DNA of 64,000 nucleotides from an uncultured Hyphomicrobiales bacterium (GTDB lineage: Bacteria > Pseudomonadota > Alphaproteobacteria > Rhizobiales > Beijerinckiaceae), in NCBI GenBank assembly GCA_903847605.1, contig CAINED010000078.1:1-64000 (forward strand), in the 5' to 3' direction. The notes below the pieces were generated by a model that saw nothing but the letters and a program-made list of their open reading frames with translations, made no database searches and was not told the DNA's origin. Of the stretch, positions 6,395 through 35,484 are shown in pieces (the first letter of the stretch is position 1; each line of letters starts with the position of its first letter). A program made the translations under genes and the position numbers.

Positions 6395-7813
6395 ATGAGC
6401 GTCATTGGCGATAGCGGCCGTCCGCCGCCGCCTTCGCGTCGCAAGGTCGACGTGAAGGCGTTGTCCATCCAGTTCGGCCTGTCGTTGCTGCTGGTATGGC
6501 TGGCATGGGAAGCGGTCGGCAATGTCGCCGAGAACATGCGCGCCCGCAATATTCCCACGAGCTTCAACTTCCTTGGGGCGACGGCCGGTTTCGACATCAA
6601 CCAGTCGCTGATCAGTTATTCGGCGACATCGACCTATGGCCGCGCTTTCTTCGTCGGCCTTTTGAACACATTGGCGGTCGCAGCCATCGGCATTGTCTTC
6701 GCGACGATCATCGGCTTTATTGTCGGCATCGCGCGGCTGTCACAGAACTGGCTCGCCGCGAAACTCGCGACTATCTATGTCGAGGTTATTCGCAACACGC
6801 CGCTGCTGCTGCAATTGTTCTTCTGGTATACGGCTGTCCTCGCGCCGCTGCCGGGGCCGCGACAAACGCTGTCGCTCCCCGGGCTGAGCTGGCGCATGCC
6901 CGAGGTTGGAGCGCTGATGGCGGCGGCCGTCGCCGGCAGTTTCGGCTTTCTGCTGTTCGCTTTCGTACGCCGCCAGCTGCGGCGCACCAACCTTTCGATA
7001 CCCGCCTATGCCGCCGCCGCCGTATGCACGGTCGCTGCGTTGCTGTTTGCAACGCTGGGGCCCAAAGTTGTTGGTCTCGGCGTTTCCTCGGGATTCTTCG
7101 ACCTTTATACAGGGGCTTATGTTTTCCTGAACAATCGCGGCCTGTTCGTGCCCGCGCCCGTTCTCGGCGATGTCGGTTTCCGGCTTTTGATCGTGATCGG
7201 CGCAAGCCTGTTGGGGGCGATGGCATTCGCCTATTGGGCGAAAGCGGCGCGCGAGGAGCGCGGCCTCATCTTCCCTGTTGGCTGGATATCGACGGCCATC
7301 GTCGTTCTGCCCGCGCTGGTCGTTCTCTGGCTGGGAAGCCGGTCGCTGGCTCTGGACTATCCGCAACTGCGCGGCTTCAATTTCAATGGCGGCGTGCGCA
7401 TCTATCCCGAGGCCTTCGCGCTGGTGCTCGGCCTGTCGCTCTACACGGCATCCTTCATCGCGGAGATCGTGCGCGCCGGTATCTTGTCGGTTTCCAAAGG
7501 ACAGACCGAAGCCGCTTCCGCGCTTGGTTTGCGCCGCACAGCGACACTCAAGCTTGTCGTCATTCCCCAGGCGATGCGCGTCGTCATTCCGCCGCTGACG
7601 AACCAGTATCTCAACCTCACCAAGAATTCCTCGCTCGCCGTGTTTATCGGCTTCCCGGAGCTCGTACAGGTGTTCGTCGGAACGGTGCTCAACCAGACCG
7701 GCGCGATGATCCAGATCATCTCGATCACGATGGCCGTCTATCTCGTGATTTCGCTCGCCACATCCATCGCGATGAACATGTTCAACAAGCGCATGGCGCT
7801 GGCGGAGCGCTGA
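6395..7813 (+). CDS. aapQ: General L-amino acid ABC transporter, permease
   Basis: The 472-residue product from ATG 6395 (a GTG at 6383 is an alternative) is an inner-membrane permease with about eight hydrophobic segments and a large central insertion, as in AapQ/BztB. The ABC permease signature is near the C-terminus: the EAA-like loop SKGQTEAASALGLRRTATLKLVVIPQAMRV, read here in parts as TEAASALGL and LVVIPQAMR, followed by NQYLNLTKNSSLA. Its TGA is directly followed by the ATG of aapM, indicating translational coupling. Confidence 0.92.
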   Translation: MSVIGDSGRPPPPSRRKVDVKALSIQFGLSLLLVWLAWEAVGNVAENMRARNIPTSFNFLGATAGFDINQSLISYSATSTYGRAFFVGLLNTLAVAAIGIVFATIIGFIVGIARLSQNWLAAKLATIYVEVIRNTPLLLQLFFWYTAVLAPLPGPRQTLSLPGLSWRMPEVGALMAAAVAGSFGFLLFAFVRRQLRRTNLSIPAYAAAAVCTVAALLFATLGPKVVGLGVSSGFFDLYTGAYVFLNNRGLFVPAPVLGDVGFRLLIVIGASLLGAMAFAYWAKAAREERGLIFPVGWISTAIVVLPALVVLWLGSRSLALDYPQLRGFNFNGGVRIYPEAFALVLGLSLYTASFIAEIVRAGILSVSKGQTEAASALGLRRTATLKLVVIPQAMRVVIPPLTNQYLNLTKNSSLAVFIGFPELVQVFVGTVLNQTGAMIQIISITMAVYLVISLATSIAMNMFNKRMALAER

Positions 7814-30985: not shown

Positions 30986-31798
30986 TTACCCCTTGATCTG
31001 CTTGCCGGCGCGGCAGTCTTCGGCGAGCGCTTTGAAGGCGTCGATGGTGCCCTGCGCCGTGTTGAAATAGGTGTCCGTCTTGGAGCCGATCCACTTCTCG
31101 CCGATGCCGAGAACGGTCTGGGCGAGGCGCACGCGGCCGTCGAGCCATGGGCCGCCGCCGAAGCCGCCGATGCACGGGATTTTCACCGCTTCCGTCACGG
31201 CCTTGCCGGCGACGGGGCCGGAGTTGGTGAAGTCGAGGGCGACCGCGCCGCAGGCTTCCAGCATCCTGGCTTCCTCGACCAGCTTTTCGGCGGCTTCCGA
31301 CATCGCGACGGCGGCGGCCGAGTTCTGGGCGGAATAGGGGATGCCGTATTTCAGCGCCGTCTGCGGCGTGAGGCCGAACTGCGCGAAGACGGGGATGCCG
31401 GCCTGCGCCATCTCCTTGATGATTTCAGGGTGGTTCGCGGCGGCGTCGACCTTGATCATGTCCGCCCCGCCTTCCTTGACGATGCGCACGGCGGCTTTCA
31501 TGGCGCTGGACAGGCCTTCCTGCACGGGGCCATAGGGCATGTCGCAGGAAACGACCATGCGCGAGGTCGCGCGGCGCACCGCCTTGCAGCAGACGAGGAT
31601 TTCATCGAGCGTCACCTGCAGGGGATTGTCGTGGCCCCACAGGTTCGCGCCGACGCTGTCGCCGATCGAGACGAAATCGAGGCCGGCGAGATCGGCAAAG
31701 CGCGTTGTCGGGAAATCCCAGGCGACGACGCCGATGCTCTTGCGCCCGTCGCGCTTCATCTGCTGCAACAAGGGGATGGTGATCTGTTCGGCGGACAT
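30986..31798 (-). CDS. PanB-like (ketopantoate hydroxymethyltransferase family) protein, divergent
   Basis: The protein has 270 residues from ATG 31798. The PanB fold is clear from VSIGDSVGANLWGHDNPLQVT (in part), CDMPYGPVQEGL and IPVFAQFGLTPQTA. Against the classical enzyme the segment after the catalytic lysine reads MIKVDAAAN rather than KIEGG, and the loop at the first Asp differs. It may therefore be a paralogue with another substrate, perhaps within the catabolic genes, rather than the pantothenate enzyme. panC is not present. It shares a transcript with the hydrolase at 30136 and is divergent to the SecY-like pair. Confidence 0.78.
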   Translation of the reverse strand: MSAEQITIPLLQQMKRDGRKSIGVVAWDFPTTRFADLAGLDFVSIGDSVGANLWGHDNPLQVTLDEILVCCKAVRRATSRMVVSCDMPYGPVQEGLSSAMKAAVRIVKEGGADMIKVDAAANHPEIIKEMAQAGIPVFAQFGLTPQTALKYGIPYSAQNSAAAVAMSEAAEKLVEEARMLEACGAVALDFTNSGPVAGKAVTEAVKIPCIGGFGGGPWLDGRVRLAQTVLGIGEKWIGSKTDTYFNTAQGTIDAFKALAEDCRAGKQIKG

Positions 31799-31953
31799 TG
31801 TGCCTCCCGGGGCATTTGTTTTGCTCGTGGTGCTTTTGCATCGGCGCGGGAATGACGTCAATTGTGGCGACGGCGTTTGCTATCGCACATTGGATGGAGG
31901 CATACAGGTCTAGGCTGCACTTGATTGGGTGCTTGCTGGAAGACCTTGGGATC

Positions 31954-33123
31954 ATGACGATTGAGAATAAGGCCGCAATTTCCGACGAAGTGGTGACGCC
32001 GGCCTGGTATGCGAGGGCTGATTTCAAGCGTCGCGTTCTGATAACGCTGGCCGCTCTGGCCTTGTACCGGATAGCGGAAAATATACCGTTGCCTGGCATC
32101 GAACTGCCGTACTGGAAGGCCGCGCAGGCGAAGGAAAGTCTGTTCACGCTGATGTTCGCCCCGGATGACGTCTCCGAGCTTTCGATTATGGCTATGGGCG
32201 TGATGCCATTATTGATCGCGTGCGTCGCCTTCGAATTGCTTCGGTTGTGTGCGCCGTCGTTCTGGCACTGGCTCGAAGCAGCGCCCAAACGGCGCATCCG
32301 CGCGCAGGGCGCGCTTTATGTTTGCGCGCTCTTTTGGGCAGCATGGCAAGCTCCATCCGTCGCTGACGAAATACCGAATATAAACTCAGCGGACGATTTC
32401 TGGAGCTTTGTCATGATCGCCTCACTTATTGGCGGCGTTGCGCTTTCCATCGGGCTTGCGACATGGATCAACAGGGCGGGACCCGGGTATGGGATCTGGG
32501 TAGTTGCAGCCTTCGTTTATTGCAGCGATGGATTGAACAAACTTGAAGCTTCTGTGGTGCTACGCGATGCAACCGCCATCGAGCATGGCCTTATCTTCCT
32601 CACTTTCGTTGTATGCGCGGCTGTGATCGTAAAGATCGAGAGGGCACGGGGGTATTCCGGTGAAGCGGCGTCTGTCATGAATCCCGGAGGTTTCTGGCCG
32701 CCGCTCATGGCTTATCTGCTCGCAATGTGGATTGCAGCCATAGGACATGTTCTTGTCTATCCGTTTTTCGGCACAGACTATATCCTGGCTGCAAATTCCA
32801 TAGAGCGATCCATCCGTTTCGGGGCAAGCGTGGTGTTGTCCGGTCTGTTCTTTTGGCGCTATGAAGCAATTGCTCGCAAGCACGGAACATATGCTGGCTC
32901 TGCCGGGCTGGCGCCCGACTGGGTGAAGTGTTGGATCCTGTTCAGCGCAATGTTCCTGGCCGAATTTTTGCTGGGGTATTTTGCAAGGTTGTCGCCTTTG
33001 ATTGCTTCGGCAAAGCTGGCATTGATCGTCATCACTATTTTGCGCATCGCGAGCGTCAATCGCGGCCCGGTCGCCGAAGGTGACAAAACTCACAGCGGGC
33101 ATTCGCGACTCGCGCGACAATGA
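31954..33123 (+). CDS. Divergent SecY-like membrane protein, first of a tandem pair
   Basis: The protein has 389 residues if it starts at ATG 31954; the frame is open further upstream. It is a multi-spanning protein whose order of motifs follows SecY: FKRRVLITLAALALYRIA then IPLPGIE (44-50), as in SecY IPIPGID; LSIMAMGVMP (76-85), as SecY ALGIMP; WINRAGPGYG (171-180), as SecY ITERGIGNG; and NPGGFWPP (243-250), as SecY TM7 N-x-x-G-x-x-P. The region between TM8 and TM9, where SecY has its long ribosome- and SecA-binding C5 loop, is short. Canonical SecY is about 440 residues. No secE or secG is near. It is 28 bases before its paralogue. Function unknown. Confidence 0.72.
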   Translation: MTIENKAAISDEVVTPAWYARADFKRRVLITLAALALYRIAENIPLPGIELPYWKAAQAKESLFTLMFAPDDVSELSIMAMGVMPLLIACVAFELLRLCAPSFWHWLEAAPKRRIRAQGALYVCALFWAAWQAPSVADEIPNINSADDFWSFVMIASLIGGVALSIGLATWINRAGPGYGIWVVAAFVYCSDGLNKLEASVVLRDATAIEHGLIFLTFVVCAAVIVKIERARGYSGEAASVMNPGGFWPPLMAYLLAMWIAAIGHVLVYPFFGTDYILAANSIERSIRFGASVVLSGLFFWRYEAIARKHGTYAGSAGLAPDWVKCWILFSAMFLAEFLLGYFARLSPLIASAKLALIVITILRIASVNRGPVAEGDKTHSGHSRLARQ

Positions 33124-33151
33124 AGCGGCAGATTTTCCAAGGAGGCGCATT

Positions 33152-34270
33152 ATGTCAGACTTTGTCGCAAGCGAGACCCCCGCAGCCACCTGGCTGGCCA
33201 GCGCAGAATTCCGGCGGCGCTTGCTCGTCACCTTTTTGGCGCTCGCTGCCTTTCATCTCGGGCAGTTTCTGCCACTTTACGGCGTAAACAACGATGTGTG
33301 GCGTTCGATTTCGGCGGATGCGTCCGTGGCGAGCAGCGCTGGCTTGTCGCGCCTGTCGATTTTCTCTCTGGGCATCACGCCTTTCCTCAGCGCCGTATTG
33401 ATCTGGGAAGTCTTGCGTCTGTGCATTCCGCCGCTGCGCCGTTGGGTCAATCGTTCGGACGAGGCGCGGACTGCGGTTCAACGCATCATCATCGGCGTTG
33501 CCTTGCTGTTCGCCATGTTTCAGGCGCGCGGCGTGACTGTCGCGATGACGCAGATCGACGGATTGGTGACCGCGCCCGAAACGATCTTTCAGCTAGTCGC
33601 GCGCACCGAAATGATCGGCGGCGCGCTCATCTGCATCTGGCTGGCGCGGGTGATCGACCGGCACGGGCTTGGCTCGGGCCTGTTGCTGATGCTGGCGACG
33701 ATGGCGGGCGTTCAACTCGCCAATCTCTTCTCGGAACTCGGACAGACTTCCGCCATGGGCCGGACGCCTGAGGGCTATGGCTATCTGATCGCGCTCTATC
33801 TCATTCTCAGCATCGGTGCGCTGCTGTTGATGGACCGCCGGCGGCTGATCGGGGAGAGCGAACATCGTTTCAATCCCGGCGGTCCCTGGCCGATCCTGTT
33901 GGGGACAGCCGGATTCTCGGTGATGTTTTTGGGCTTTGCGCTGGCGGTGTATGGCTTGGGCTTCCGGGTGAGCCTTCCGGACTCCCTGCCGCAAATCGGT
34001 TTGGCCGTCATCGCTGTGCTGACGATCGTGTTCGGAGTGCTTTTTGGATTGGCCCAATGGGACGAGAGCGGGCGGACGGGTTCCGCGCAACGCGCCCTGT
34101 TGCAAGGCGCCGCCGCCGGGGCGGTTCTGGCGGCGATCTGTCTGGCCGGGCAATTCCTGCTTTATGCCGGCGAGTTGCCCATGCTTCTGGAGGGCGCCAA
34201 CATCGCCATCCTCGTGGTCGCCATCCGCCGCATTTTCGAGCCGCCCGCCGCGCTTGCCAATCCGCTTTGA
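33152..34270 (+). CDS. Divergent SecY-like membrane protein, second of a tandem pair
   Basis: A 372-residue protein with a strong ribosome site (AGGAGG before ATG 33152). The same SecY landmarks appear: EFRRRLLVTFLALAAF, LPLYGV (40-45), RLSIFSLGITPFLSA (67-81), VIDRHGLGSG (167-176) matching SecY ITERGIGNG, and NPGGPWP (241-247). About ten hydrophobic segments. Later loops are shorter than in SecY and the C5 loop signature is lost. It is a paralogue of the preceding gene and certainly co-transcribed. The pair might form a heteromeric pore or a non-translocating relative. No partner such as SecE is seen. Its family relation to SecY is inferred from motif order, not from a search. Confidence 0.72.
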   Translation: MSDFVASETPAATWLASAEFRRRLLVTFLALAAFHLGQFLPLYGVNNDVWRSISADASVASSAGLSRLSIFSLGITPFLSAVLIWEVLRLCIPPLRRWVNRSDEARTAVQRIIIGVALLFAMFQARGVTVAMTQIDGLVTAPETIFQLVARTEMIGGALICIWLARVIDRHGLGSGLLLMLATMAGVQLANLFSELGQTSAMGRTPEGYGYLIALYLILSIGALLLMDRRRLIGESEHRFNPGGPWPILLGTAGFSVMFLGFALAVYGLGFRVSLPDSLPQIGLAVIAVLTIVFGVLFGLAQWDESGRTGSAQRALLQGAAAGAVLAAICLAGQFLLYAGELPMLLEGANIAILVVAIRRIFEPPAALANPL

Positions 34271-34341
34271 CGTCAAAAGCCAAGCCGTATAACGACGCTG
34301 CCTGACGCGAGGCCATGCTCGCATTTCCCGTGGAGGCAGCC

Positions 34342-35484
34342 ATGAACCGCAGCACGTCGAAAATTCTCACCACCCATGTCGGCTCGCTGCCCAACCTCGT
34401 CGAACTCGACGAGAAAGCCGCGAACTACGATGCAACCCTGCGCGCGGCTGTCGGCGATGTCGTCGCGAAGCAGCGCGATCTCGGCATCGATATCGTCAAC
34501 GAGGGCGAATACACCAAGGGCGGCGACTGGCTGTCGTTCGTGGAAAGCCGCTTTTCCGGTTTCGAGGCGCGGGATTGGCCGGAGGGCGAGAAGCCCTTGC
34601 TGGCGCGTGGAAAGGACCGGGAGGATTTTGCGGCTTTCTATCAATACGCGGCCGAGAAGGGCATTCTGTTTTTCAATCCCGGCGGGCAAATCCAGCACGC
34701 CAAGCGCAAGATCTGGGTCTGCACCGCGCCGGTGAAATATTCCGGACAGGAAGAGCTGAAGCGCGAGATCGAGATTACGAAAGCGGCGGCCGGGACAGAC
34801 AACGTGTTCCTGACGTCGACCGCGCCGGCGAGCATCGAGCCCTACAGGCGCAACGAATTCTACAAGACCGAAGAAGAAATGCTGTTCGCGCTCGCCGATG
34901 CGCTGGCGGTGGAGTATCGCGCCATCGTCGAGAGCGGGCTCATCCTGCAGATCGACGACGCCTGGCTGCCGGCGCTTTGGGATCGCATCGGCATGCAGAT
35001 GGGCATGGAGGCTTTCCGCAAATATTGCGCGGTGCGCGTCGATGCGTTGAACCATGCGCTAAAGGGGCTGCCCGAAGAGCGCGTGCGCTATCACCTGTGC
35101 TGGGGTTCATGGCACGGGCCGCACGCCTACGATCTCGAACTCAAGCACATCGTCGATCTCATGCTCGAAGTGAAGGCGCAGGCCTATCTGATCGAAGGCG
35201 CGAATGCGCGCCACGATCACGAATGGCAGCTTTGGGAAACAGTGAAACTGCCGAAGGACAAAATCCTGATCCCCGGTGTCATCGCCCACGCGACCGACAC
35301 GATCGAACATCCCGAACTCGTGGCGCAGCGCCTGCAGCGCTATACGAGCGTCGTCGGACGCGAGAACGTCATTGCCGGCGCAGACTGCGGCTTTGGCGGG
35401 CGTGCGCATCCGCAGATCGCCTGGGCGAAGCTGAAGGCGATGTGCGAGGGCGCCGAGATCGCCAGCCGCAAATTGTTTGGCTAG
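34342..35484 (+). CDS. Cobalamin-independent methionine synthase II-like (MetE C-terminal) protein
   Basis: The protein has 380 residues from ATG 34342 (GGAGG 6 bases upstream). It corresponds to the C-terminal, zinc-binding barrel of MetE. Ligands are visible as His and Cys in RYHLCWGSWH, Glu in YLIEGANARHDHEW and Cys in AGADCGFGGR. The N-terminal pterin domain of full MetE is absent. Such stand-alone proteins are thought to use other methyl donors or demethylate small molecules; the substrate is unknown here. It precedes a NitT/TauT-type transporter on the same strand with 108 bases between. Confidence 0.8.
   Translation: MNRSTSKILTTHVGSLPNLVELDEKAANYDATLRAAVGDVVAKQRDLGIDIVNEGEYTKGGDWLSFVESRFSGFEARDWPEGEKPLLARGKDREDFAAFYQYAAEKGILFFNPGGQIQHAKRKIWVCTAPVKYSGQEELKREIEITKAAAGTDNVFLTSTAPASIEPYRRNEFYKTEEEMLFALADALAVEYRAIVESGLILQIDDAWLPALWDRIGMQMGMEAFRKYCAVRVDALNHALKGLPEERVRYHLCWGSWHGPHAYDLELKHIVDLMLEVKAQAYLIEGANARHDHEWQLWETVKLPKDKILIPGVIAHATDTIEHPELVAQRLQRYTSVVGRENVIAGADCGFGGRAHPQIAWAKLKAMCEGAEIASRKLFG

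Follow-up and report, generated by a model that had tools for sequence, protein, structure and literature searches.

A tandem pair of short SecY paralogues that lack the SecA- and ribosome-docking loops: a possible membrane-insertion channel of an undescribed kind

We describe two adjacent genes, A and B, whose products are SecY homologues by Pfam, by PDB sequence search and by predicted fold, and which belong to a set of short SecY paralogues that occurs sporadically and has so far been confirmed in two families of the order. The proteins of this set have lost the cytosolic loops with which SecY meets SecA and the ribosome, and they keep, most strictly in the members other than A, the hydrophobic pore ring and part of the polar pattern of the lateral gate. 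The pair may represent a type of channel for membrane insertion that is not yet described. Tentatively, and with a confidence that falls somewhat short of even, we read B and the short SecY set as a lateral-gate channel or insertase, derived from SecY, that does without SecA or ribosome docking.

The two genes lie on the plus strand of the window, the whole stretch of 64,000 nucleotides that was analysed, which is part of contig C78 in a genome of 92 contigs and 5.34 Mb. Gene A, the more diverged member, runs from 31954 to 33123 (ATG start, 389 aa; in-frame starts further upstream exist) and gene B from 33152 to 34270 (ATG start, 372 aa), which bears out the tandem, divergent SecY-like pair of the preliminary description. 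The 28-bp gap between them (33124-33151) contains AAGGAGG, a ribosome-binding-like sequence read directly at 33139-33145 on the plus strand ahead of the ATG of B, and a consensus scan of the gap found no terminator-like sites; the spacing of the two genes suggests that they are co-transcribed. Over 31500-34700, the consensus scan gave nine terminator-like sites against 4.0 expected and one promoter-like site against 1.2 expected.

Profile and sequence searches place both proteins in the SecY family. Each exceeds the gathering score of the Pfam SecY profile (PF00344; 32.2 bits), A with 35.8 bits (E 7.7e-9) and B with 63.8 bits (E 2.2e-17), and all 16 matches per protein in the PDB sequence search are SecY (best E 5.8e-11 for A and 7.4e-18 for B). 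The family match that had been proposed from motifs was thus recovered by profile. Aligned with one another, A and B share 27-28% identity across some 357 residues (90.2 and 91.8 bits), and each matches the canonical SecY of its own genome less well than it matches its sister (48.3 bits for A, 63.9 bits for B). Neither reaches the TIGR00967 cut-off for canonical SecY (253.6 bits; A 65.2, B 79.1). Four motifs, PLPG/PLYG, G-[IV]-[MT]-P, GxGxG and NPGGxWP, occur in both proteins in the order of SecY; this order had been noted before and stands, while the PxxG motif, which had been placed ahead of TM1, ends it.

The predicted fold agrees with the searches. The model of B gives 39 Foldseek matches at E <= 0.001, and these and the next two are all SecY or Sec61; other transporter folds were considered for B and rejected, the first non-SecY fold appearing only at E 0.3. 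In the predicted models the SecY fold spans most of the chain, a match that is not independent of sequence homology because the input alignments contain canonical SecY rows. Another transporter fold, which the preliminary description had named as one outcome that would count against it, was found neither by sequence nor by global fold. The model of A is poor in the C-terminal half, and at one hydropathy threshold A shows seven hydrophobic peaks to the ten of B. A different, seven-span topology for A was considered, and the low count was taken instead as weak hydrophobicity.

The long cytosolic loops have been lost. Short (27) and canonical (7) SecY sequences were aligned, with E. coli numbering taken from HMMER alignments, and the filled columns of each region were counted. 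In C5 (canonical 339-357), all 27 short sequences fill at most 4 of 19 columns, and A and B fill 4 each; in C4 (canonical 245-262), 25 of the 27 fill at most 5 of 18 columns, and A and B fill none. The earlier claim that both proteins have lost the long loops that contact SecA and the ribosome is borne out by these counts. By the same column count, the shortened TM6-TM7 region of B, from which the C4 loop is missing, comprises residues 228-247 (33833-33892, plus strand), and its shortened TM8-TM9 region, from which most of C5 is missing, comprises residues 301-318 (34052-34105, plus strand). The two C4 exceptions, L075 with 18 and L112 with 13 of 18 columns filled, are occupied by unlike sequence, which in L075 (5836-7059, genome G397) is an Asp/Ala/Pro-rich insert where the C4 loop would be. 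At the start of the plug (61-71), 26 of the 27 fill at most 3 of 11 columns, the exception being A with 7. The R357 column holds 22 gaps, three Arg and two Gly over the 27 short sequences, with a gap in A and, in B, an Arg within a short, ill-aligned remnant. Loss does not simply extend to the C-terminal tails, which vary.

The pore ring was kept. Three of its six positions are, we assume, I82, I187 and I408. The other three are I86, I191 and I278 of SecY (PMC4148884). Taken together, the six are bulky-hydrophobic in 98% of cells over the 27 short sequences (26 or 27 of 27 at each position), against a background of 67% in 130 other hydrophobic columns and 71% in 102 membrane-span columns with the ring counted. 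Random six-column sets were as hydrophobic in 0.03% and 0.05% of 20,000 draws, and the permutation P against the membrane-span columns was 0.0005 with columns treated as independent. Hydrophobic pore-ring positions do not by themselves show conduction.

The polar pattern of the gate was kept selectively. Of 58 polar positions that are invariant in the seven canonical sequences, three (R26, T30 and Q135) persist in 24 or more of the 27 short ones; as the sequences are related, the ring and gate counts are not independent events. Q135 corresponds to E. coli Gln131, in the gate at TM3, and is Gln in all 27 short and all seven canonical sequences (Gln124 of B; 33521-33523, plus strand). At the place of E. 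coli Gln93 in TM2, Gln is found in 7 of 7 canonical sequences and Glu in 26 of 27 short ones, namely Glu94 in A (32233-32235) and Glu86 in B (33407-33409), both on the plus strand; the sole exception is L034, with Arg, which we count against the insertase reading. A Trp at the start of TM7 (NPGGPWP; Trp246 of B, 33887-33889, plus strand) is new to the short set, being present in 25 of 27 where all seven canonical sequences have Ile, and the place of E. coli S87 is Ser, Thr or Asn in 24 of 27. Gln93 and Gln131, together with yeast N302, presumably correspond to the polar gating motif. N302 and a role of the polar gating motif in setting the hydrophobicity threshold are described in PMC3897919, which cites Trueman 2012, and a polar cluster that stabilises the lateral gate in PMC7427319.

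Since pore and gate are kept and the docking platform is gone, the simplest reading is a core that handles segments without SecA or the ribosome. B would keep the ten-span clamshell of SecY, its hydrophobic pore ring and the polar pair of the gate, and would no longer offer SecA and the ribosome the cytosolic C4/C5 platform they act on. Short, hydrophobic or already-targeted segments could then be taken up and released sideways into the inner membrane with no motor, and the acidic gate residue (Q93 to E) would help release, as would the shortened plug in all but A. We infer polypeptide conduction or insertion, SecA-free working and, for the pair, contact between A and B. Against the insertase reading stand the lack of a linked substrate gene and of a second SecE, and the departure of A from the pattern, with Ala at I191, Ile at S87, 7 of 11 plug columns filled and a poor C-terminal half in its model. 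A would have arisen by duplication of the same gene as B. As it keeps more of the plug and has lost part of the ring and gate pattern, A could be either a degenerate partner of B that lacks a working pore or a copy in decay; partner or decaying copy is its most likely status, and two equal pore subunits are just one option. Selected paralogues that have the ring and gate but not the SecA/ribosome platform amount to a natural deletion experiment. They raise the questions of what the SecY core is capable of by itself and whether a docked motor is needed for lateral gating, and the Gln-to-Glu change conserved in the gate helix yields a specific, testable prediction on the gating threshold.

SecY is near-universal and mostly single-copy, and a single copy was also the rule among the genomes searched. 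In the genus, a second, short SecY was found in 6 of 51 genomes, the window's own counted (13 of 51 gave no SecY match). In the window's family, 9 of 298 genomes at least 90% complete carry a short SecY at a listed place (G000, G397, G398, G411, G413, G424, G174, G845 and G876; 15 of 298 gave no SecY match), and G853 has a second SecY match whose place was not given among the matches listed. A second family of the same order has a short SecY in 14 of 103 genomes. In a scan of 398 genomes from across the phylum, 2 pass a strict cut-off of E 1e-63, which would miss some diverged short SecY; both belong to the window's family. The family and phylum counts are lower bounds, since the scans scored a few candidates of each genome (at most five for the class, six for the family, and four for the order and phylum); the protein searches for orthologs took the best 8000 candidates by word sharing, so that their number is likewise at least that found and more orthologs are possible. 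Order scans with A or B alone gave further second matches in G143, G150, G173, G198, G349 and G376, and a class scan gave others in G453 and G524; given these, the short SecY set may extend past the two families. A contig scan for close relatives by name, run with B, returned a single locus, which matched 39 residues at 38% identity. One member of the tree, the G411 protein, is database entry P0011, named 'hypothetical protein [unclassified Beijerinckia]'. In the open-licence literature on SecY paralogues, additional secY genes and SecY-like proteins we found no description of the short SecY set, in keeping with the earlier remark that no characterised function was known. In G876, the short SecY frame (L113:964-2583) carries about 175 extra Arg-rich N-terminal residues, probably an upstream extension of the reading frame. 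Plasmid cargo was considered and rejected: of 72 plasmid records matching B at E <= 1e-3, none covers more than 80% of B, all are below 60% identity, and the gene name, where given among the best 20 of the 72, is secY. Plasmids of about 400 kb from Sphingomonas, Sphingopyxis and Arthrobacter (NZ_CP155752.1, NZ_CP076395.1, NZ_CP104273.1 and others) carry secY-annotated genes that match B weakly.

The pairing seen in the window does not appear to be general. Each of the 22 other short-SecY loci opened, in stretches of 9.7 to 15 kb, holds one such gene; among the loci opened, the window's genome is the only one with two, and A and B are the only tandem pair. The preliminary description had named a heteromeric relative of the translocon among its options, and the single gene at each of these 22 loci, whose genes are not close orthologs of B, suggests that an obligate heteromer is not the rule. 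We give little credence to a bolder version of the insertase reading, in which A and B assemble into a SecY-type insertase that is heteromeric and motor-independent, with a shared SecE or none, taking clients from solution or from YidC and carrying the new acid in the polar lock of the gate, with the single short SecYs as its homomeric version.

The remaining Sec machinery of the genome is present once. SecE is normally required for SecY stability, and no SecE or SecG match falls within the window, as had been observed; one SecE over the cut-off lies on contig C84 and one SecG at C78:125378, both away from A and B. A single canonical secY (382 bits, 443 aa), separate from A and B, is present in the genome, as is a single SecA (one SecA_DEAD match). 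No second set of SecE, SecG and SecA was found in the genome. With one canonical secY and a single SecE, SecG and SecA, A and B are additional, and they may still share the genome's SecE and SecG. A regulatory paralogue would fit several of these observations: it would not conduct polypeptides, and would modulate SecYEG, YidC or SecE or act as a decoy by binding to them, like a pseudo-subunit. The core is retained though the docking loops are lost, a canonical translocon is present in the same genome, and the sporadic presence of the short genes suggests a non-essential modifier. However, the pore ring is conserved more tightly than the other hydrophobic positions, a constraint for which a modulator alone would have no need, and we consider this explanation unlikely, if a serious contender.

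We regard as somewhat less likely still that the short genes are decaying duplicates under weak constraint, old copies of secY that still fold and do little, with A further along than B. In a tree that joins the 27 short sequences to 7 canonical ones, a branch with support of 100/100 has the short sequences on one side; A clusters with B and its two metagenomic orthologs (P0002 and P0003; 97/96) and has the longest branch. In a 40-row tree, 14 of 15 short SecY fall together (100/99) and the fifteenth, L034, falls beside the canonical side, a placement that the long branches make uncertain. Measured on relatives rather than on A or B themselves, dN/dS (Nei-Gojobori) of three short pairs is 0.19 (the closest pairs), 0.19 and 0.31, while the canonical secY genes in those genomes give 0.021, 0.023 and 0.022; more distant short pairs give 0.33 to 0.58 with dS near saturation. 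Selection acts on the short genes, but by this ratio it is nine to fourteen times less strict than on canonical secY. This relaxed constraint, the long branches and the patchy presence are what decay would produce, and A is more degenerate than B, with the longest branch, fewer hydrophobic peaks, a poor model and a GC3 of 0.63, the lowest of 17 genes between 24.7 and 41.6 kb, where the other 16, B included, range from 0.77 to 0.89. Yet dN/dS is well under 1, 12 columns (the initial Met counted) are invariant across the 14 sequences of alignment A2, and the short set has near-invariant Glu, Trp and Ser residues that canonical SecY is without. The place of the gene is also conserved at 14 of 14 loci in the second family, in a neighbourhood of serine hydrolase, purC and purQ (with purB too at 12 of 14), and this constancy indicates that the short SecY gene there was inherited in place.

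Elsewhere the surroundings differ. The 23 loci, the window counted, have nothing in common except the short SecY itself, which led us to set aside neighbourhood as a guide to function; no substrate, signal or partner gene was linked to short SecY at them, and certain locus pairs of the window's family, such as L076 and L077, have further genes in common. A and B are bordered on the left by a panB-like gene (ketopantoate hydroxymethyltransferase by Pfam; 30986-31801, minus strand) and on the right by a cobalamin-independent methionine-synthase-like gene (Pfam; 34342-35484, plus strand), after which comes an NMT1/THI5-type ABC transporter. The methionine-synthase-like gene has six genome matches at E <= 1e-80, self counted. 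Around this right-hand neighbour, none of eight stretches from genus relatives contained A or B (tblastn, E <= 1e-8). In one of the eight alone, G428, panB also adjoins; there the right neighbour is 89% and panB 93% identical, the two lie 1.29 kb apart, and the best match to A or B has E 0.34. A and B were therefore gained at, or lost from, the window's site, and we favour gain. At the A/B site, G428 has two tandem small secreted-looking Arg/Tyr-rich ORFs (L204:6159-6500 and 6583-6975). That the short set is a channel repurposed for ions, lipids or small molecules seems improbable, for although the C4/C5 platform for polypeptide-delivering machines is gone and the gate helix and TM7 have each gained a conserved residue, an acid and a Trp respectively, no metabolic or transport gene occurs at all loci, the purine locus being constant in one family only, and gate Gln131 is present in 27 of 27.

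Comparison with known SecY proteins sets the short set apart. It shares with canonical SecY (PF00344; TIGR00967) the ten-span fold, the PxxG at the end of TM1, the GIxP of TM2, the GxGxG loop, the pore ring and Gln131. However, A and B are 54 and 71 residues shorter than the 443-aa canonical protein of their own genome, lack C4 and C5, have Glu for Gln93 and, in B, a shortened plug, and no SecE or SecG of their own was found. SecY2 of the Gram-positive accessory Sec system is likewise a second, diverged SecY besides the canonical one, but A and B, at 31.9 and 41.5 bits, fall far below the TIGR02920 cut-off (249.6 bits), and their host genome has a single SecA. Ssh1, the second yeast Sec61, is ribosome-bound according to the title of its structure (2ww9), whereas the short set is without docking loops. 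The SecY paralogue of G143 is also a diverged SecY copy, of 403 aa, but it has C4- and C5-like loops, with GVAPGE for the canonical GIRPGE at the place of Arg357, and it sits on the canonical side of the tree on a long branch. This copy (L037:5970-7181, minus strand) lies directly downstream of canonical secY, and the gene after it is presumably adenylate-kinase-like.
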